Made by a program: the position numbers and the translations under genes
Assembly (NCBI GenBank): GCA_028343845.1
Contig: JAOLZO010000021.1
Coordinates: 1-42,740 of the forward strand
Direction of reading: 5' to 3'
From: Verrucomicrobiota bacterium
Lineage (GTDB): Bacteria; Verrucomicrobiota; Verrucomicrobiia; Opitutales; Seribacteraceae
DNA length: 42,740 bases
Notes under the pieces: generated by a model
Told to the model about the DNA's origin: nothing
The model's input: the letters and a program-made list of their open reading frames with translations, nothing else
Database searches by the model: none
Shown here: positions 2,362 to 12,273 of the stretch, in pieces
Layout: each line of letters begins with the position of its first letter
How positions within the stretch are numbered: the first letter of the stretch is position 1

Positions 2362-4320
2362 ATGTCGCAGCTAGAACAAAGACTTGGTCCGAACTTGCGT
2401 TTGGAATGGAAGCTCTTGAATCAGGGAAAAGCTTCCTCGCTCGAGTTTTTAAGACTTTGTGAGAAAATGATCAAGGTTGGGGAGTTTCTCCTCGCCCATG
2501 ACGTAGCCAAGGCCGGTCTAAGTAAACACAAGAAGGACAGGAAGCTTAGCCAGAAAGCTGCCCATGCCCTGTCCAAAGCCGGATCGCCCATGATGGCTAC
2601 CAAGATTTTGGAAGAGTTGGTTGCAGGCGGAGACCGCGATGTGGAAACCCATAGCTTGCTTGCAAGCGCATACAAGGATTTGTGGGAATATTCGAGCGAT
2701 AAGGAGAGCAAGATAAAATATGCCGAACTCGCGATCGCCCGCTACGAGGAGGCTTATTCCACGAACAGTTTCGATAGCCTTCGTACGAGTCAACGCAAGG
2801 AACTCGAAACCCAATACTATCCATGTATCAATATCGCGTTCATGCATTTTATGTCCGGCGAACTGGACAAAGGCAGGGAAAGTGCGGAAAAGGCTCGGCA
2901 AATTTGTCAAAAGTTAAAGGACAACGGTACCTATGACTATTGGATTCAAGTGACGGAGGCGGAGTCTCTCCTGCTGCTGGGATCTGTAGATGAGGCTGCT
3001 TTTACCTATTGCTCGGCCACGAAGAGAGAGGAATCTCAGCCCTCTCAAATTGCGAGTACGCGCAAACAAGCTCTCCAGATCGCATCAGTCTACGAGGATG
3101 AAGAAATTTTGGGAAAGGTCCACCAGGCCTTCCCTAAGCTCGGGATCGTCGCTTGCTCAGGGCATGTGATCGACGGTCCTGGCAACGCTCGCAGGTTTCC
3201 GCCCGAAGCCGAACCGGAAGTTAAGCGAAAGATCGAGGAAGCCCTCGAGCAGATGGGGGCGAGTTGCGGGTATAGTTCAGCCGCCTGCGGTACTGATATC
3301 TTGTTTCTCGAGACGATGGCGGAAAGGGGAGGGGAAACACATGTTTTTCTTCCTTTTGCCAAGCAAGAATTTATAGAGACAAGCGTCCGCAGAGCGGGTG
3401 GAAATTGGGTGAGCCGGTTTGAGAATGTCCTCGACCGCGCGACCTCCGTCCACTATGTGACGCGGGAAGGATATAACGGTGAGGACTCCCTGTTTTCCTT
3501 TTGTAATGACATCATGCTTGGCTTTACCACCATGCGAGGCCGTGGGTTGGATGAGAACCCGAAGCTTCTCGTTTTTTGGGATGGTAAAAAGGGAGATGTC
3601 GGAGGAACAGGCGAACTGGTCAGTCGATGGAAAGCAAATTTTAACGAACCGATGGTCATCGATGCCAAGGAGGTGCTCTCTTCGGTTTCGGATTCGGACA
3701 AACCTCCTGCTACTCATGGCGAAACCAAGCCGGCCCACATCATGACTGCCGATGGCCTGGCGAAAAGGGTGTCCCGATCGGTCAAGGTTATGCTTTTTGC
3801 AGATGTTGCTGGCTTTACCAAGGTCACCGAAGACCTGACCCCGGTTTTTGTGGAGAAGTTTTTGGGCGGGATTTCGGAAATGATCAAGAAGCTCTCGAAG
3901 GCACCCGCATTCGTAAATACTTGGGGTGACAGTTTCTTTGCTGTTTTTGATGATCTTGACGATGCATTGAATTTATCCATGCAACTGAGGGATTATTTTA
4001 CTGGAGACACTTGGGACGAGCTAGGTCTCGATGATGGGTTGGAAGTGAGAATATCGATGCACGCCGGGCCGGTTTATGAAGAGTTTGATCCGGTTTTGGC
4101 GAGAAGGAATTTCTTTGGGCATCATGTCAACCAAGCCGCTCGGATCGAGCCAATCGTATTGCCCGGTTCCGTTTTCGTTTCTGAAATCATGGCCGCCTTG
4201 CTTTCCTTTGGGCATGATGACTTTGATTTCGAGTATGTCGGGAATTTGGAACTTGCAAAGAATTACGGGAGTCATCCTATTTACATTCTGCAAAGAACTG
4301 GTTACAAGGATAGCATTTAA
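2362..4320 (+). CDS. TPR-like / SLOG-like / class III nucleotide cyclase multidomain protein
   Basis: A 652-residue protein with three parts. Residues 1-255 are all-helical and TPR-like, resembling the region annotated as TRAFs-binding (DUF4071) in other proteins. Residues about 258-430 form a predicted Rossmann-like domain (GIVACSGHVID, SAACGTDILFLE, HVFLPF, LLVFWDG) that I read as SLOG-like, a family proposed to bind nucleotide-derived ligands. Residues about 474-645 are a class III adenylate/guanylate cyclase catalytic domain. Metal-binding aspartates D481 (FADVAGFT) and D523 (NTWGDSFF) are present, as are the transition-state residues N590 and R594 (VNQAARIE), so it should be active. The positions that read the base are N519 and N583, unlike adenylate cyclases (Lys/Asp or Thr) or guanylate cyclases (Glu/Cys). 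No membrane segment is visible. A TIR-FGE gene follows 19 bases downstream, so the two are probably cotranscribed. Substrate and role are unknown. Confidence 0.85.
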   Translation: MSQLEQRLGPNLRLEWKLLNQGKASSLEFLRLCEKMIKVGEFLLAHDVAKAGLSKHKKDRKLSQKAAHALSKAGSPMMATKILEELVAGGDRDVETHSLLASAYKDLWEYSSDKESKIKYAELAIARYEEAYSTNSFDSLRTSQRKELETQYYPCINIAFMHFMSGELDKGRESAEKARQICQKLKDNGTYDYWIQVTEAESLLLLGSVDEAAFTYCSATKREESQPSQIASTRKQALQIASVYEDEEILGKVHQAFPKLGIVACSGHVIDGPGNARRFPPEAEPEVKRKIEEALEQMGASCGYSSAACGTDILFLETMAERGGETHVFLPFAKQEFIETSVRRAGGNWVSRFENVLDRATSVHYVTREGYNGEDSLFSFCNDIMLGFTTMRGRGLDENPKLLVFWDGKKGDVGGTGELVSRWKANFNEPMVIDAKEVLSSVSDSDKPPATHGETKPAHIMTADGLAKRVSRSVKVMLFADVAGFTKVTEDLTPVFVEKFLGGISEMIKKLSKAPAFVNTWGDSFFAVFDDLDDALNLSMQLRDYFTGDTWDELGLDDGLEVRISMHAGPVYEEFDPVLARRNFFGHHVNQAARIEPIVLPGSVFVSEIMAALLSFGHDDFDFEYVGNLELAKNYGSHPIYILQRTGYKDSI

Positions 4321-4339
4321 GCCCTTTTACTCTATTGCT

Positions 4340-5800
4340 TTGAGCTCAACCGCTGATATTCCGATTCCATTCGAATCCTATTCGGGGGAAAAACCCTATG
4401 CCGTTGTGAGCTATGCTCATCGGGACAAAGTTTTGGTTTACAATTCGATGCGTACCTTTCACGAGGAAGGCGTTAATATGTGGTATGACGACGGGATTCC
4501 GCCGGCCGAAGAGTGGCAAAATGAAATTGCCCAAAAGATCATGGGGTCGTCTATGCTCGTCGTTTTCCTGTCACCTAATGCGGTTTCGTCTTCATATGTA
4601 AACAGGGAAATCCAATTTGCATTGAGTGAAAACAAGCCAATCCTTCCCATTTTTCTTGAGGAAACTTCCCTTACTCCAAGCTTGAAGCTATGCCTTCATC
4701 AATACCAATCCTGTTTCTGCCAGAAGCTGGATTGGCAAAAACGAGCAATCGAGGTCATGCGAAAGGTTTTGGAGAAGGCGAGCGTATCTTCCAACGCTCC
4801 TAAAAAACCCCGTACCGAATCGGTCGAGGAAGAGATCTTTGACGAAAGCGAAGGCCTTTGGAAGGTCATGGATCAAATCTTCTCCACTCAATTAAACCGT
4901 CACACCCGGTTGTTTGGTTCAAAAGTATCATCGAAGCCTTCGGAATCCGTTCAACTTGACGAAGCAAGTTCTCCCTTGCCCGCTTTCCCTAAAGCCAAAG
5001 AAAAGCCGACATCTCAATCCGTGCAAAAGACCAGGCATCCTTTTGCCGTGGACGTTGTGGTTGGAGATGGGGCCAAGGAAACTACAAGGGAAGAAAACCT
5101 TCCGCATAAGGATGCGTATGTCGGTGATTTATCGTGGATCCCGCCTGGCAAAATAACCATCAAGGTTCCCTATACTTCAGGAAGAAAGGCGGTTAGCGTG
5201 CCCCACGGGTTTTGGCTGAGCCAACATGTGATCACCCAGGAAGCCTTTACCGAGGTTATGGGGGTGAACCCAAGCTATGTTGACGTGGAAGGTGGTTTGG
5301 AGGTCATTAATCTTCCGGTAAACCGCGTTTCCTGGCTGGATGCCGTTGAGTTTTGTAAAGCTTTGACCGTACTTTCTGAAATAAACGGTACGATTCCAGC
5401 GAATTATGAGTTCCGACTTCCCTCCGAAGTAGAATGGGAATATGCCTGCCGGGCGGGAACGACAAGCGATTACTATTTTGGCGATGATTCTGCCCAATTG
5501 CCCGAGCATGCGTGGTATCTCATTAATAGCATGCGGCGTGTTCATCCGGTAAAGATGAAAGAGCCGAATCCGTGGGGCTTGTACGATATGTACGGGAACG
5601 TTTGGGAGTGGGTAGGGAATTCCTTTGTCAATACTCTGCTCGAAGATAGCGAGCAGGACGAATTCAGGATTTGCAGGGGAGGGACCTACATGAAAAACGC
5701 ATCTGGTTGCATGTCCTCTTCCAGGGATACGAAATCACTTTTCCATCGCTATCGCAACTTGGGCTTCCGGGTGGCTTTGGCCAAATTGCCCAATAGCTAG
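4340..5800 (+). CDS. TIR domain plus FGE-sulfatase-like (C-type-lectin fold) protein
   Basis: Two-domain protein of about 486 residues. The N-terminal TIR domain (about 18-120) shows AVVSYAHRD, GVNMWYDDGIPP, MLVVFLSPNAVSSSY and then E90 in VNREIQFAL, at the position of the catalytic glutamate of NAD-cleaving TIR domains. A polar, probably flexible linker follows. From about residue 258 there is a formylglycine-generating-enzyme-like domain: PHGFWLSQHVITQEAF, NRVSWLDAVEFCKAL, FRLPSEVEWEYACRAG, GLYDMYGNVWEW, CRGGTYM and NLGFRVA. In true FGE two copper-binding cysteines follow the GGSW motif; here the first is Lys and only the second remains, so oxidase activity is doubtful. The frame is open back to 4076 inside the cyclase gene, but that part is not TIR-like. 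I chose TTG 4340, 20 bases after the cyclase stop, as start; no clear Shine-Dalgarno sequence supports it. Likely an effector or partner of the cyclase. Confidence 0.8.
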   Translation: MSSTADIPIPFESYSGEKPYAVVSYAHRDKVLVYNSMRTFHEEGVNMWYDDGIPPAEEWQNEIAQKIMGSSMLVVFLSPNAVSSSYVNREIQFALSENKPILPIFLEETSLTPSLKLCLHQYQSCFCQKLDWQKRAIEVMRKVLEKASVSSNAPKKPRTESVEEEIFDESEGLWKVMDQIFSTQLNRHTRLFGSKVSSKPSESVQLDEASSPLPAFPKAKEKPTSQSVQKTRHPFAVDVVVGDGAKETTREENLPHKDAYVGDLSWIPPGKITIKVPYTSGRKAVSVPHGFWLSQHVITQEAFTEVMGVNPSYVDVEGGLEVINLPVNRVSWLDAVEFCKALTVLSEINGTIPANYEFRLPSEVEWEYACRAGTTSDYYFGDDSAQLPEHAWYLINSMRRVHPVKMKEPNPWGLYDMYGNVWEWVGNSFVNTLLEDSEQDEFRICRGGTYMKNASGCMSSSRDTKSLFHRYRNLGFRVALAKLPNS

Positions 5801-5882: not shown

Positions 5883-7370
5883 ATGAGCCAAGAACAGCCC
5901 CCAACCCCCGCCCCGGATTCTTCTCTTGACGGAAGTGATCAATTTGCCGTTCGTCAAAGCAAGTTGGAACGCCTGAGGGAATCCGGAAGCGATCCCTTTC
6001 GTTCGAACTGGGATCAGTCCCACACCTCAAGCGAGGCTCTTTCATTATTGCCCGAAGACTTGGAGGAGGGACCGGAGGTCTCGGTAGCCGGGCGGATTGT
6101 GGCCCTCCGGCTTATGGGCAAAGCCTCTTTCTTGAAGATCATCGACCGAGAGGGGAAAATCCAATCCTATGTCCGAAAGGATGAAATAGGAGAGGATGAA
6201 TATGCCGACTTTAAGAAGCTAGACCTTGGAGACTTCATTGGTGTTCGCGGTCCTCTCTTCCGTACCAAGACCGGTGAAATTACCATTCGGGCAAAGGAGT
6301 ATCGATTGGTATCCAAGGCCCTCCGTCCCTTGCCTGAAAAGTGGCACGGGTTGACGGACAATGAGCAAATTTACCGCCAACGCTATCTTGATCTGATCGT
6401 AAATGAAGATTCCCGGGATCGCTTCAAGGCAAGAAGCAGGATTATCAGGGAAATACGTGAATTCTTTTGGGCAAGAGACTTTTTGGAAGTCGAGACCCCC
6501 ATGCTTCAATCGGTTTCAGGGGGAGCGGCGGCCCGACCCTTCCGTACGCATTTCAATGCCTTGGATTGCGATTTCAGTATGCGGATTGCCTTGGAATTAC
6601 ACCTCAAAAGATTGCTCGTCGGTGGATTCGATCGGGTATTCGAGGTGGGCCGGGTTTTCCGAAACGAGGGACTTTCACGCAGGCACAACCCTGAATTTAC
6701 GATGCTCGAAGCTTATCAGGCTTATACGGATTATCGCGGGATGATGGAGTTGACCCAATCCCTTATCCAGCAGGTTGCTGAGCGTGCATTGGGGACTTTG
6801 CAAATGGAACGGACAGAGGGTGATGCGATCGATCTGTCCGGGGATTGGAAAGAGGCAAAATACAAAGACTTGATCATTGAAGCCGTTGGCCAGGACGATT
6901 GGTTCGAATTGCCCAAGGCCGCAATGCTTGAAAAGACAAAGAGCATGGGTATAGAGGTTGATCCTGAACTGGAAGAGTTCGAGATAACTAATGATGTATT
7001 CGAGAAGGTGATAGAACACACCTTGATTCAACCCACGTTCGTCACTCATATTCCCCGGGAGCTTTGCCCGCTTGCCAAAATTACCCAGGATGACGAGAGC
7101 ACGATCGACGTTTTCGAACTCTGTATCAATGGACAGGAAATTGCCCCTGCTTATTCCGAGCAAAACGATCCTTTTGTTCAGAGGGAAGCCTTTATGAAGC
7201 AGGTTGGAGAGGAGACACAGGAGTTGGATGATGATTTTCTGCTCGCTCTCGAGCACGGAATGCCTCCTGCCGGAGGAATGGGCTTGGGCATAGACCGGTT
7301 GGTTATTTTTCTAACCAAGGCTTCGAATATCCGGGACACCATTCTTTTTCCCACCCTCCGTCCATCTTGA
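5883..7370 (+). CDS. lysS: lysyl-tRNA synthetase, class II
   Basis: Charges tRNA-Lys with lysine in the cytoplasm. The 495-residue length is normal. An N-terminal OB-fold anticodon-binding domain (about 60-170, VSVAGRIVALRLMGKASF) precedes the class II catalytic core. Motif 1 is FLEVETPMLQSVSGGAAARPF-like, motif 2 is VFRNEGLSRRHNPEFTMLE, and motif 3 is GMGLGIDRLVIFLT. The ATG is preceded by a pyrimidine-rich leader (tttctaacttttcac) without a Shine-Dalgarno sequence. The stop overlaps an ATG (7370) that may be the authentic start of the next gene. Confidence 0.97.
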   Translation: MSQEQPPTPAPDSSLDGSDQFAVRQSKLERLRESGSDPFRSNWDQSHTSSEALSLLPEDLEEGPEVSVAGRIVALRLMGKASFLKIIDREGKIQSYVRKDEIGEDEYADFKKLDLGDFIGVRGPLFRTKTGEITIRAKEYRLVSKALRPLPEKWHGLTDNEQIYRQRYLDLIVNEDSRDRFKARSRIIREIREFFWARDFLEVETPMLQSVSGGAAARPFRTHFNALDCDFSMRIALELHLKRLLVGGFDRVFEVGRVFRNEGLSRRHNPEFTMLEAYQAYTDYRGMMELTQSLIQQVAERALGTLQMERTEGDAIDLSGDWKEAKYKDLIIEAVGQDDWFELPKAAMLEKTKSMGIEVDPELEEFEITNDVFEKVIEHTLIQPTFVTHIPRELCPLAKITQDDESTIDVFELCINGQEIAPAYSEQNDPFVQREAFMKQVGEETQELDDDFLLALEHGMPPAGGMGLGIDRLVIFLTKASNIRDTILFPTLRPS

Positions 7371-7880: not shown

Positions 7881-10650
7881 CCGGATTTTCCCTTTGACGC
7901 CTTCTGAGCGAACTTCCCAGCTCGCTACGCCATAGCCCCTTGGGAACGTAGGCAATCGCAATGAAAAAGAGTTGTATGCCGATGAACCCCCTTAACCAAA
8001 TGAAACCGGCGTCGGAAAAACCGTAGCTGTGTAGTCCTTCCTGCAATAAGTTGGTTCCGAACCATGACCAGGCGGTAATGACGTTTCCAAAGATTGCAAG
8101 GGCTGCAATTCCACGGTCCTTGGCTAATCCTCCCCATCTGGCATGCAATAAGATGGCGCTCCAGATAACAATGAGGAGGGCCCCGTTTTCCTTCGGGTCC
8201 CATCCCCAGAACCGTCCCCATGATTGATCTGCCCAAATTCCCCCGAGCATGGTTCCGACGAAACTCAGAAGAACGGCGAAACAAGTGACCCCGTAAATCA
8301 TGGATGAAATGGATCGGGCTGTTTTCTTGTCGAATCTACTATCCAATAAACCTCTGAGTACGTACAATATGCCGAGTATGCCGGCAACGAACATGGCGAC
8401 GTATCCCAAGGTGATGCACACGACGTGGGTGGCTAGCCAGAAGTTGGTATCAAGCACGGCTTGGAGTACTTCCATCGTGTCTCCATCCATAGCCAGGTTG
8501 TGAGCTACGAGAAGGGAAAGGAAACCCACTATGGAGGCTGCGGCAGTTCCGATTCCATTGCGGTATATCCGTTCGAAAATCAAGCCGAACGCAACGGCGC
8601 CCAAACTGATGAAGATTGCCGATGAGTAAAGGTTGGTTACCGGGGGGCGTCCTTGGATCCAAATTCGGACTACGAGACCTACGACGTGAAATGCGAGTGC
8701 AAGGCAGGCAATGCCGACTGCCGACTTTTGCATGGGCTCTTGCCAAATAAGCCACGAGAGGAAGACCAGAATCAATGCAATCAGGTAGAGCGCCATGCAG
8801 GTGACGAAGGGCTGCGCTCCGTTGAACATATGCTCCGGGATACGGTTTTTGAAGTCATGCCATTGCGAGGGGGCGACTTTTTCAAAATCCTCTGAGAGCG
8901 TTTTTACTACGGCGTTGAATTTTGTATGGTCCCCATCTTGATAGCTGTTCGAGAGTTCTGCATAAGACATGAGGGTAGGGTCGATCTTGCCCGTTCCCGA
9001 ATCGGCTCTGGATTCCAATAGCGAGCCGGACAGGGAAGCCCAGTTAATGTGGTGCAAGGAACCGTTGCTAACCGTTGCGGAAGTAGGACCGAAAAGAACA
9101 ATCCAAGTCAGGCTTAGGGTTGCAAAAAGCAAAAGAGCTATCGATGTGGAAAAGGCAAGGCTGCCTTTTCTTTTCAGAACCTTAAAGAGAAGAAAAGCCA
9201 TGCCAGCAAAGGAAAGATAGAACAGAGCGTCCCAGATCCAGTCCCTGCCATTGTGCTCGTTCGTCAGGGTGGCAGTTGCTCCTCCATCGACCGACTTGAT
9301 TAGTTTTTCCCTCAATTGGTTTTCCCTCCATATTCCGTCTAAAGGGGAATACGATCCGATCTTTACGTGAGACTGGTCCAGTTTCCCGTTTTCGTTGAGA
9401 TCCTCCTCGGGGTCGAGTTGACCGTTATGATTCAAATCCTCTCCCTCCAGAAATTCGCCAAGGGGTTCTCCGTCGGCGGTTAATTTGTCAGAACCGTTTT
9501 CAATGCTTACGGTTCCCTTGTAACTCGCCGGCGCAACGATGCCCAAAGGAGCGAAGCGGGCTTGTCCGCGAAGGAAGGGTTTTGATGCCTTGAGGCTTTG
9601 GTCCGCCTGGATAAGTTCCATCGCTTTGGGCTTTTTGCTCAAGATTTCCATGAGCTTGCTTTCGTTTTCGAGTGCTCCGGATGCAAGCAACTCTTCCCGC
9701 AGCTTTTCAATTGCCCCATCGGAGATTTCCTTGTGAAAGCTAAGAGCTTCGATTTCCTTGGAGTAGGAATATCCGAGCAAATGCACTCCGGCGTGAGGAA
9801 AAAGCGAGTTCTTAAGCTGATCATACAAGGTAACCGCATCGTACAAATGACCGAGGTTTCGCTGGTAAGGGGTGTATTTTTTTGAGTCGGGCCCTGGGTC
9901 AAGCTTGCCGTTCTGATTGAGGTCCTCTCCATCGTCTATCTGGTTGTTGCGGTTCAAATCCTCTCCGAGCTTGATCGAGCGAATGGCCCGTTCGATCTGC
10001 GTTACCTTGGCCATCAGGGAGTCGAGCTTGTCCTGAGCATCCTCATACTGCGGGATTAGCCGTTCCCGCATTTCCTCTTTATCTTTTACCGATGCATCAG
10101 GGTTATCCGAAACGTAATCGTTTACTTCTTTTAAGATTTTGTCTTGTTTCTTACGTAAATTTTCGATGTCAGTGCTGTGGAACAGATCGTTGAAGGAGAA
10201 ATATTTCGCTTTTCCGGGTTCGAATCCGAATAGTCCGAGAACCTCAGGGTGATCGATCCGGAAAACTTTGTATTTGTCTGCCTTTGTCGGGCGCAGGGTA
10301 AGTTCTGCGAACCATTCGATTGCGGTGAGGTAGCGCGGTGACTTTTTGCCGTAGAAGAGCTTTTCGAAGTAACTTGCTTCGGGCCCGTCGGGAACGGTTT
10401 GCTTGCCCCTCATGACCAAAAGCGCATTGCGGGCAACTGTATCGAGTGGTTTTACCCGGCCTTTCTGCTGAACGGGGAGTTGGCCGAAGGTGGTTAAGTC
10501 AAAATCTCCATCATGGCTGGGTGGTCGTAATTTGCTCAATGCATAGAGGGCGCATATTGATACGAGCGCAACGGGAATGAACCTGGACAAAGTTCTGCCT
10601 TTTGACCCAGAGCCGGGATCGTCTCTTTCTTTTCTCATTTCGGAACTCAT
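7840..10650 (-). CDS. ccsA: CcsA-type cytochrome c biogenesis protein with EF-hand-like insert
   Basis: Haem handling subunit of System II cytochrome c maturation, acting in the inner membrane with ResB. At 936 residues it is far longer than a minimal CcsA. An N-terminal membrane anchor is followed by FGQLPVQQKGRVKPLDT, a stretch I associate with long CcsA forms of Bacteroidota and Planctomycetota. A large periplasmic region, rich in charge and coiled coil, comes next. The C-terminal part (about residue 610 on) carries many TM helices and the tryptophan-rich haem motif WGRFWGWDPKENG. Two tandem EF-hand-like pairs (about residues 229-252 and 403-425; DLNRNNQIDD, DLNQNGKLDP, DLNHNGQLDP, DLNENGKLD) sit in the periplasmic loop and should bind calcium. 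Its start overlaps the resB stop by 4 bases, so the genes are coupled. Confidence 0.92.
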   Translation of the reverse strand: MSSEMRKERDDPGSGSKGRTLSRFIPVALVSICALYALSKLRPPSHDGDFDLTTFGQLPVQQKGRVKPLDTVARNALLVMRGKQTVPDGPEASYFEKLFYGKKSPRYLTAIEWFAELTLRPTKADKYKVFRIDHPEVLGLFGFEPGKAKYFSFNDLFHSTDIENLRKKQDKILKEVNDYVSDNPDASVKDKEEMRERLIPQYEDAQDKLDSLMAKVTQIERAIRSIKLGEDLNRNNQIDDGEDLNQNGKLDPGPDSKKYTPYQRNLGHLYDAVTLYDQLKNSLFPHAGVHLLGYSYSKEIEALSFHKEISDGAIEKLREELLASGALENESKLMEILSKKPKAMELIQADQSLKASKPFLRGQARFAPLGIVAPASYKGTVSIENGSDKLTADGEPLGEFLEGEDLNHNGQLDPEEDLNENGKLDQSHVKIGSYSPLDGIWRENQLREKLIKSVDGGATATLTNEHNGRDWIWDALFYLSFAGMAFLLFKVLKRKGSLAFSTSIALLLFATLSLTWIVLFGPTSATVSNGSLHHINWASLSGSLLESRADSGTGKIDPTLMSYAELSNSYQDGDHTKFNAVVKTLSEDFEKVAPSQWHDFKNRIPEHMFNGAQPFVTCMALYLIALILVFLSWLIWQEPMQKSAVGIACLALAFHVVGLVVRIWIQGRPPVTNLYSSAIFISLGAVAFGLIFERIYRNGIGTAAASIVGFLSLLVAHNLAMDGDTMEVLQAVLDTNFWLATHVVCITLGYVAMFVAGILGILYVLRGLLDSRFDKKTARSISSMIYGVTCFAVLLSFVGTMLGGIWADQSWGRFWGWDPKENGALLIVIWSAILLHARWGGLAKDRGIAALAIFGNVITAWSWFGTNLLQEGLHSYGFSDAGFIWLRGFIGIQLFFIAIAYVPKGLWRSELGSSLRRRQRENPVKASLSSENSSES

Positions 10651-12273
10651 GACGATGCCTTTCTTCGTCTCGAAGCAAAAGTAAAGAGGTGATACAGGAA
10701 CTGAACGGTTAGGCCTAAGCCAACCAGCGATAGGCCGAGGTAGGGCAAGATGCTGCCCGGGTTGTATACGACTTGAAGCCTGGTTTGTTTTTCAGTTACC
10801 GAATCAAAGCCCGCCTGGAAAAAAGTGTTCCCCTCGAGGCTCAGGGGGTGGTTCATGTAAATTCTGGTTTTCCTGGTAAGTTCCCCGGGCGCATTGATCT
10901 GCACGTCACTTGAGAAATCCTTGGGTCTGTCCGTCCCGGGATAACGCAGGAAACGAAAATCAAGCAACTGAACGTAAAAATCGTAATAATAGCGCTTGCG
11001 TCTGATTTCGATTCGGTAGCTTTTCTCATTGTGTTCGAAGCGTTGCGGGCGGTATTCCGCAATGTCGAAAAAGGAGGAGGCGAGCCATTCCCCAAGCACC
11101 TTTTCCGGTGCATCTTTTGCTCTCAATTCCACGACTGCGGAACGAAAGTTCATTTCATCCGCCCGGAAGGTTTCCTGTTGTCTGATGGGCACGATCTTGA
11201 CCTTGCTGTTGTTCGACTTGCGAACATCAAAGCTTTTTTCCCCCTCAACCGGACTTCTGAAATCCGTATTTTTGTAAAAGTCCCTTACGACAAGCATAAA
11301 TGGAAAACGTTGATCGGTTTGCGCCAAGTCGAGGGTCGGGGAATCCGTTGGGTTATCGCTGTCAGGCTCCAATAGGTCGATCGGGATGCTCAAGACGTGG
11401 TCTTTGGCTGGGTCCGACTCATCGATCAGTACAAACTCATCCAAGTGGAAGTCCTTCGAATAATTGACCGACTCACCCTCGTTGATAACCATGATGCTTT
11501 CCCTTTCCGTCAAATCGGTCACCAGCTCACTGATCAGCATCAGGGCCAAGCCGCCATGCGTGATCCAGATTCCGGCATACCGGGCGCTCAATTGATAACG
11601 GAATGCAGCCGAGACCAGAAGGTTTGCCAGAAGTAAGCCGCCAAGCAAATATCCTCCGGGGAGAGGAACGAAAATCCCCCTTAGCGTAAAAGGCGGTTGC
11701 CCGTCTATCTGAATGACCGCCAATTCGGGGCCACCGGTTTTATCCTTCCCGCTTTCGGGGGGGGGGAGGTTTCTCCATCGTCGAATCGGGAAGAATGGCA
11801 GCATAGCCGTTCTTGTAATTATCGTTGGCGAGTGTTTCCTTGAGTTCCTTGAGGGAATGAAACCGTAAATTCGGATCCGGTTCCAGCGCTCCGTCCGAAT
11901 CATCGAGGACGGATTTAATCTGTCTGTGGAAGGTGTTATCCAAAAAGCCCAGGAAACGAAAGTCCTCAAGCCGTTCGTCCTCGATTGAAATTTCTTCGGT
12001 GTCCTTGGCCAAATCGCTTTCGGGATGCGTGACCATGACCATTTTTGTACCCAAGGGCCATTCTTGCGGATATTGCCAAGCGACGAAAAAAGATTCGAAA
12101 TAATCCTTTTGGGCCTTGTTTATGCCTATGTTCACTTGGTCGAGAGTACCGAAGAAAACCAAGGCCACCGAAAAACCAAGAAGAACGATGGTCAACCGCA
12201 AGGAAGTAAAGACAGCGATTACGGGGTTCTTCCGCCATTTTTTCCGCCAGTCAATGAAATCGGATTGGTTCAT
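10647..12273 (-). pseudogene. resB: ResB-like cytochrome c biogenesis protein, frame broken at a G10 run
   Basis: Partner of CcsA in System II cytochrome c maturation. The N-terminal part (12273 down to the run at 11766) holds SLRLTIVLLGFSVALVFFGTLDQ, the ResB first TM helix. The C-terminal part (frame closing at 10647) holds two further TM helices, a large periplasmic domain with NHPLSLEGNTFFQAGF, a typical ResB motif, and a last TM helix. The frames meet at a run of ten G (C on the coding strand); removing one base joins them into about 541 residues, a normal ResB length. The start at 12273 overlaps the lipoprotein stop in an ATGA arrangement; the longer open frame to 12315 is unnecessary. 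Whether this is an assembly error, a phase-variable gene or a real lesion cannot be told here; I doubt it is dead because ccsA downstream is intact. Confidence 0.85.
11757..11766. repeat. G10 homopolymer inside resB
   Basis: Ten consecutive G on the + strand, exactly where the two resB frames meet. Nine (or twelve) would restore the reading frame. Such runs are prone to slippage in replication and to miscounting in sequencing. Confidence 0.95.

Follow-up and report, generated by a model that had tools for sequence, protein, structure and literature searches.

Between the housekeeping genes rpsU and lysS of a Verrucomicrobiota bacterium lie two adjacent genes whose products both resemble nucleotide-signalling enzymes. 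Do they form one pathway, and if so, which protein signals to the other? The window analysed here is a stretch of 42,740 nucleotides (nt) from contig JAOLZO010000021.1 (assembly GCA_028343845.1; Opitutales, Seribacteraceae). The first gene joins a TPR-S region, a SLOG-type domain and a class III nucleotide cyclase; the second joins a TIR domain to a C-lectin-fold domain of the formylglycine-generating enzyme (FGE) type. Both open reading frames (ORFs) lie on the + strand, 19 nt separate the stop of the cyclase gene (4320) from the start of TIR-FGE (4340), and the flanking rpsU (2094-2294) and lysS (5883-7370) are the same in relatives. An earlier reading of the letters and their ORF translations (the sequence-only reading) had described this layout correctly, and had taken the pair for an island and a candidate defence or stress module. 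We find instead that the pair is core in its family and inherited vertically, and it looks more like a signalling module than a set of mobile defence genes. We propose, with somewhat less than an even chance of being right, that it acts as a Thoeris-like two-gene relay in which TIR-FGE would be the input, the TPR-S/SLOG part the reader and the cyclase the output.

The first protein was found in 43 of the 92 genomes searched (own included), 40 of these being among the 42 genomes of its own family; relatives with 82-83% identity are Opitutia/Verrucomicrobiota assemblies. Forty loci were fetched, 37 from the family, of which 34, one per genome, show what lies between the cyclase gene and lysS (our handles are G for genomes, C for contigs and L for loci). 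TIR-FGE fills this interval in 32 of the 34, which bears out the earlier view that the two genes work together; that view was to fall if the pair were not conserved in relatives, and within the family it is conserved. Upstream, rpsU is seen in 30 of these loci, and the remaining four begin at a contig end. Across the 31 loci with both genes fully placed, the gap runs from -4 to 27 nt, lengths that depend on our own choice of start codons, and the genes overlap, start on stop, in 7. The TTG start of TIR-FGE occurs at the same place in the orthologues L081 and L085, which supports this choice of start. Protein distances follow those of dnaE for both the cyclase protein (r = 0.89, n = 25) and TIR-FGE (r = 0.78, n = 23), with 0 of 2000 permutations as high in either case, and they also follow lysS. 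The ratio of nonsynonymous to synonymous substitution rates (dN/dS) is 0.05 for the whole first gene, 0.04 for SLOG and 0.05 for the cyclase (one pair each), and 0.06 and 0.09 for the FGE domain (two pairs); a point against leaning on these ratios is that dS is saturated in most comparisons and that neither TIR nor TPR-S has a ratio from any of them. Conservation is lowest in the linkers. Since the pairing is kept across the family, the distances follow dnaE and lysS and dN/dS is low, we regard the locus as an old one, kept by vertical descent, for which the term island is inapt.

In two of the 34 loci (G001 and G028) TIR-FGE is absent from the interval and an intact NTWGD cyclase is retained, whereas all 32 loci with TIR-FGE have the cyclase. 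The deletion has left a scar in G001 (L066:7981-8190), where, between the intact cyclase gene and lysS, the opening codons of TIR-FGE are joined out of frame to its closing ones; in G028 the genes are separated by only about 50 nt.

Both ends of the first protein are recognised by Pfam. The N-terminal region, previously called TPR-like, is a helical TPR region as stated, and is better named as the TPR-S domain (PF20308; residues 54-161, E = 2.1e-13, 51.2 bits against a cut-off of 27.6). Guanylate_cyc (PF00211) matches residues 477-632 (E = 3.5e-14). In the structure predicted for the full-length protein (mean predicted local distance difference test score, pLDDT, 82.9), helices extend up to residue 255, followed by an alternating strand-helix domain (262-440), a poorly predicted linker (446-467) and the cyclase. 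A Foldseek search of viral models with the whole protein gave, as its seventh match, the DprA-like phage protein A0A222YVC8 (E = 6.3e-5, template-modelling score 0.78 to the target, 174 columns, target 153 residues). Foldseek gives no aligned range, and we infer that this match falls on the middle domain. Among the matches listed, PDB fold searches of the whole model returned cyclases, which is no test of the middle domain. SLOG domains have a DprA/YpsA-like Rossmannoid fold. We call this domain SLOG-like because of the DprA-like fold match and the motifs SSAACGxDILFxE and WDGxxG..GGT, which support the SLOG-like Rossmann domain proposed earlier.

The cyclase retains its catalytic residues, with D481, D523 and R594 invariant and N590 nearly invariant in 35 aligned sequences, own included. 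N519 and N583 occupy what we take to be the positions holding Lys and Asp in adenylyl cyclases. The motif NTWGD is found in 16 of 19 cyclase sequences (own included; the weak match L140 is left out), RTAGD in one, and two are degenerate (L138 and L139). The first metal-binding Asp is present in 17 of the 19, L138 and L139 being those without it. In these two TPR-S/SLOG/cyclase genes (L138:6318-8330 and L139:6473-8476) the metal Asp positions are lost and the SLOG motifs retained. The host genome holds four class III cyclase matches. Only the window cyclase shows NTWGD at this site; the remaining three have KTIGD, DKFIGD and DKYIGD. Judged by these residues, the cyclase belongs to a distinct 'NTWGD' subfamily with a predicted non-canonical base pocket.

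The second protein matches TIR_2 (PF13676; residues 23-125, E = 1.4e-16) and FGE-sulfatase (PF03781; residues 283-479, E = 4.7e-34), so that Pfam agrees with the earlier calls of cyclase, TIR and FGE domains. The NADase-type Glu noted in the TIR domain is E90, which is invariant in 32 aligned sequences; a Glu stands at this position in all 33 aligned rows of a broader TIR set, 5 of which are genes fetched twice. A Pfam scan at E up to 1 lists FGE and TIR-type families only, and no cyclic nucleoside monophosphate (cNMP)-binding domain. At what we take to be the positions of the FGE active-site Cys pair stand K452 (nearly invariant) and C457 (invariant). Since one of the two enzyme cysteines is missing, we take this to be a binding domain without formylglycine-generating activity. 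Towards the C-terminus, residues such as RNLGFR are invariant in 32 sequences. The predicted model of TIR-FGE is poor (mean pLDDT 66) and was not used. The best PDB sequence match of the FGE domain is TvpA, a variable protein of a diversity-generating retroelement (DGR). Like DGR variable proteins and FGS sensors, as portrayed in passages of PMC10907252 and PMC7159879, TIR-FGE carries its FGE-type C-lectin domain C-terminally behind another domain; in those passages, FGE-type domains of conflict proteins are proposed to be sensors. Unlike them, the domain here is conserved and the host genome, an assembly 64% complete, has 0 matches to the reverse transcriptase family RVT_1; a role as a DGR target was set aside on these two grounds.

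Beyond the family, the TPR-S/SLOG/cyclase gene has a patchy distribution, and a TPR-S/SLOG profile matches 17 of 387 Verrucomicrobiota genomes, own included. Adjacency was assessed at 17 loci, from the 17 profile-matching genomes minus own and G327, plus G051 and G067; G327 and a second locus of G383 (SLOG alone by profiles) were left out. All three domains lie in one ORF at 12 of these loci; in G413, G446 and G182 TPR-S/SLOG and the cyclase form two consecutive ORFs, and in G330 and G400 the profiles did not find all three domains. A TIR gene lies within 5 kb at 6 of the 17 loci, against 0.27 expected (0 of 400,000 simulations as high). With genus g44 counted once, the figures are 4 of 15 against 0.24 expected (P = 7e-5). 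Within 2 kb there are 4 of 17, or 2 of 15 with the genus counted once (P = 0.005). TIR genes are direct neighbours on the same strand in G297 and G182, and on the other strand, divergently, in G234, G160 and G205, which belong to one genus; the G205 TIR gene counts as a direct neighbour because the 881-residue + strand ORF beside its cyclase gene, without a Pfam match, overlaps the real TIR ORF on the opposite strand. Rows of TIR genes adjoin a single SLOG-cyclase gene in G205 (five matches within about 12 kb; row L155, G205:C1:1186000-1204000) and in G234 (four within 10 kb; row L156, G234:C11:74000-92000). In these rows, and in a third one in G359, most scanned genes have TPR tails. Genes for RyR, SLOG-cyclase and TIR-TPR proteins stand in a row on one strand in G297, and in G383 an nSTAND1-WD40-FGE gene adjoins, with a TIR match beyond. 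The RyR-domain gene of G297 (L128:7927-8214, 96 residues) lies directly before the SLOG-cyclase gene.

The linkage extends to plasmids. The SLOG domain is matched in 8 plasmid records, and in 4 of the 6 examined, all proteobacterial, a TIR gene lies within about 2.2 kb of it. The Novosphingobium plasmid (L168:3613-7236) has TIR, pNTSase1 (a predicted nucleotide synthetase) and TPR-S/SLOG genes in a row, and the C-terminal part of its TPR-S/SLOG protein is not recognised as a cyclase. In Rhizobium leguminosarum 31B a TIR-STAND gene lies just upstream of a lone SLOG gene, and in Sinorhizobium K101 a TIR gene is found about 2.1 kb from the SLOG domain. The Lichenicola plasmid (L172:5551-7909) encodes TIR-SLOG-TIR around a lone SLOG gene with gaps of 45 and 7 nt; its second TIR protein also matches the TPR-S profile, and type IIL restriction-modification genes adjoin. 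The Paraburkholderia and R. leguminosarum RCAM2802 records have TPR-S-type neighbours (TPR-S, DUF4071) and no TIR by profile. No match to the TPR-S/SLOG part was found in phage records. Taken across these neighbourhoods, the recurrent unit appears to be a SLOG-type reader plus a TIR, with the reader here fused to, or encoded beside, a cyclase.

How does the pair compare with characterised systems? In Thoeris, passages of PMC9503650 have the TIR product act on the SLOG domain of ThsA, and passages of PMC11204291 have one ThsA go with one or multiple ThsB. As in Thoeris (ThsA with SIR2-SLOG, and one or more ThsB TIR proteins), a TIR protein with the NADase-position Glu is here paired with a SLOG-bearing partner, and some relatives have a single SLOG gene beside several TIR genes. 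Unlike in Thoeris, the output is a class III cyclase in place of SIR2 or TM-macro, Pfam does not identify the SLOG-type domain as STALD, a TPR-S region and an FGE-type sensor are added, and the locus is core and chromosomal. Membership in Thoeris was rejected, as Pfam finds no SIR2, macro or STALD family in the first protein at E up to 1; STALD itself occurs in 2 of 240 Verrucomicrobiota genomes, the host not among them. Pycsar (PycC with PycTIR or PycTM) likewise has, next to a TIR gene, a class III cyclase that keeps its catalytic residues and differs from adenylyl and guanylyl cyclases in those of the base pocket. The residues N519/W521/N583 differ from the cUMP and cCMP sets given for PycC in passages of PMC11224242, which themselves vary among PycC clades. 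Unlike in Pycsar, the TIR protein lacks a cNMP-binding domain, as the sequence-only reading had rightly said in judging this no standard Pycsar, and the cyclase carries TPR-S and SLOG. Pycsar membership was set aside on the former ground, in a scan that did not look for PycTM-type effectors.

Further likenesses lie in conflict systems built on TPR-S. Burroughs and Aravind (2020) reportedly predicted a TPR scaffold that recognises NAD+-derived signals, in systems paralleling cNMP signalling, and TPR-S (PF20308) and pNTSase1 (PF20301) are presumably the Pfam versions of domains from those systems. The likenesses are the TPR-S match above its cut-off, the TIR and nucleotide-making partners, and pNTSase1 between the TIR and TPR-S/SLOG genes of L168. 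We call the pair a variant of these known, largely predicted TPR-S/NAD-derived-signal systems. No listing from the open-licence literature described a SLOG and NTWGD-cyclase fusion that stands with TIR-FGE as a core pair throughout a family.

In the proposed relay, the FGE-type domain would bind a conserved ligand, whereupon the TIR domain would turn NAD+ into a messenger, for instance an isomer of cyclic ADP-ribose. This messenger would be read by the TPR-S/SLOG part of the first protein, which would activate the attached cyclase; the cyclase would then make a cyclic nucleotide, not necessarily from ATP or GTP, and the final receptor would be an unlinked cNMP-binding protein. A TIR input fits because TIR-FGE has been lost with the cyclase kept and because several TIR genes occur at loci with one cyclase. 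The Thoeris-like direction, TIR to SLOG, fits better than the cyclase-to-TIR direction of Pycsar, the system to which the sequence-only reading had compared the pair, because the SLOG-TIR linkage repeats, TIR rows stand by single cyclase genes and the TIR has been lost without the cyclase. A fuller version, somewhat unlikely to hold in all its parts, is a two-messenger relay of immune type: a TIR-made NAD+ derivative would gate, through SLOG/TPR-S, a cyclase with an Asn/Trp base pocket and a product other than cAMP or cGMP, a wiring in which elsewhere one cyclase would serve many TIR sensors and which would now be a core stress pathway in one Opitutia family.

Several observations weigh against the relay. 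Pfam models gave no match to the middle domain (about 258-440) of the window protein. In 15 diverse members (L104, L131, L142 and L143 left out by choice, and L092 also left out), the SLOG domain drew four unrelated chance-level Pfam matches, one member each, and no SLOG model at E up to 1; its profile found a single PDB chain at chance level (E = 0.75). There is no TIR gene within 5 kb at 11 of the 17 outside loci, and the chance model spreads TIR genes evenly, unlike the real rows. The row in G359, 13 TIR matches in about 31 kb (row L157, G359:C20:84000-103000), is on another contig than the SLOG gene, and the cyclase of that gene is degenerate. The G051 locus has an NTWGD cyclase beside a NACHT-TPR gene, and the genome shows no TIR_2 match, so other inputs must exist. 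The loss asymmetry is weak because G001, an assembly 67% complete, carries a further TIR gene, with an FGE gene after it, at a different site and G028 has four other TIR matches. Finally, the TIR may act instead as a scaffold or as a killing enzyme.

Among the alternatives, a physical complex is unlikely. Here the TPR-S/SLOG protein would be a scaffold that binds TIR-FGE, and association would gate the cyclase, the TIR or both, with no diffusible messenger. TPR regions often bind proteins, the genes are closely spaced and some overlap, and the two proteins' distances are correlated (r = 0.82, n = 29), as common ancestry by itself would make them. Against this, SLOG is linked to very different TIR partners (TIR-TPR, TIR-FGE, short TIR), which is easier to picture with a shared small molecule, and the NADase-position Glu is always kept. 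The reverse, Pycsar-like relay, with the cyclase as sensor and its cyclic nucleotide activating TIR-FGE as a killing NADase, is decidedly unlikely: the two enzyme types are those of PycC and PycTIR and the base pocket departs from adenylyl and guanylyl cyclases as in PycC (passages of PMC11224242), but TIR-FGE has no cNMP-binding domain, the cyclase has likely sensor domains of its own and outlasts TIR-FGE in 2 of 34 loci, and several TIR genes adjoin one cyclase gene elsewhere.

That these bacteria use the pair for anti-phage abortive infection is very unlikely. The company kept elsewhere by its domains (TIR, SLOG, STAND, TIR rows) and the restriction-modification genes by the Lichenicola copy speak for it; against it stand the core, vertical position between rpsU and lysS, an FGE domain that is not fast-evolving in the two computable pairs, the want of a reverse transcriptase match in the 64%-complete host genome, and PADLOC, which finds nothing for the first protein and weak TIR hits only for the second. 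Nothing found ties the pair to phage defence in the family, and the earlier label of candidate defence module is unsupported there. Two independent core genes held together merely by the conserved rpsU-lysS neighbourhood, where the surrounding gene order is conserved too, would be a highly improbable explanation, as the same domain families are linked again in unrelated neighbourhoods and another phylum.

For the receptor of the proposed relay, a possible candidate comes from G067, where the 3' end of an ABC transporter gene, which encodes a C-terminal cNMP-binding domain, overlaps the SLOG-cyclase ORF (L104:261-5538); by its gene position this transporter might receive the signal directly. 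It had no tblastn match (E 1e-3) in the six stretches compared, of which five come from family genomes and the sixth from G051. The host genome has two cNMP-binding-domain matches, one over the cut-off, at least one match occurs in 29 of 32 chosen genomes, and the one scanned among six fetched proteins of about 1080 residues is a Na+/H+ exchanger with such a domain; none of these is assigned as the receptor. If true, the relay would link, in a single cascade, the two kinds of nucleotide signalling used in bacterial immunity, one based on NAD-derived messengers and the other on cyclic mononucleotides, and would mean that immune-type TIR-SLOG wiring can turn into a core, vertically inherited pathway. 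It would also give a testable function to TPR-S, a domain that the animal stress kinase ASK1 also has.

Table 1 Features of the cyclase and TIR-FGE gene pair in the window.
Feature	Position	Strand	Basis
TPR-S / SLOG-type / class III cyclase gene, 652 residues	2362..4320	+	ORF (ATG start), Pfam; seen in 40/42 family genomes, some as contig-edge pieces
Helical TPR-S region, residues 1-255	2362..3126	+	Pfam TPR-S best stretch 54-161; all-helical in model
SLOG-type Rossmann domain, residues 258-440	3133..3681	+	Model, fold match, motifs SGHxID..RFP, SSAACGxDILFxE, WDGxxG..GGT
Class III cyclase domain, residues 470-650	3769..4311	+	D481, D523, N590, R594 kept; presumed base-pocket positions N519, N583
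TIR-FGE gene, 486 residues from TTG start	4340..5800	+	ORF, Pfam, orthologue starts
TIR domain, residues 14-145	4379..4774	+	NADase-position Glu E90 at 4607-4609
Linker, residues 146-260	4775..5119	+	Poorly conserved
FGE-type C-lectin-fold domain, residues 262-484	5123..5791	+	K452, C457 at presumed FGE Cys-pair positions; one Cys missing

Promoter and terminator scans of the locus were at or below shuffle level. Neighbours of the scattered gene in G042, G102 and G239 include, for example, phosphorylase, IspD, glycosyltransferase and TerC genes. In the family, 39 of 41 genomes contain a TIR match. A second TIR gene of the host genome (L148:2576-4990, contig C13) encodes an 805-residue TIR-TPR protein with a ThsB-type TIR match, and other family TIR proteins have an N-terminal GYF_2 domain (L149:4207-4971, L151:2000-5520 and L154:3921-5594). 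Further along the window, a resB-like protein (10647-11969) is 30-34% identical to most family copies and 48-67% identical to those of L089, L095 and L099, which are from other genera; these identities suggest a replacement or two forms of the protein.

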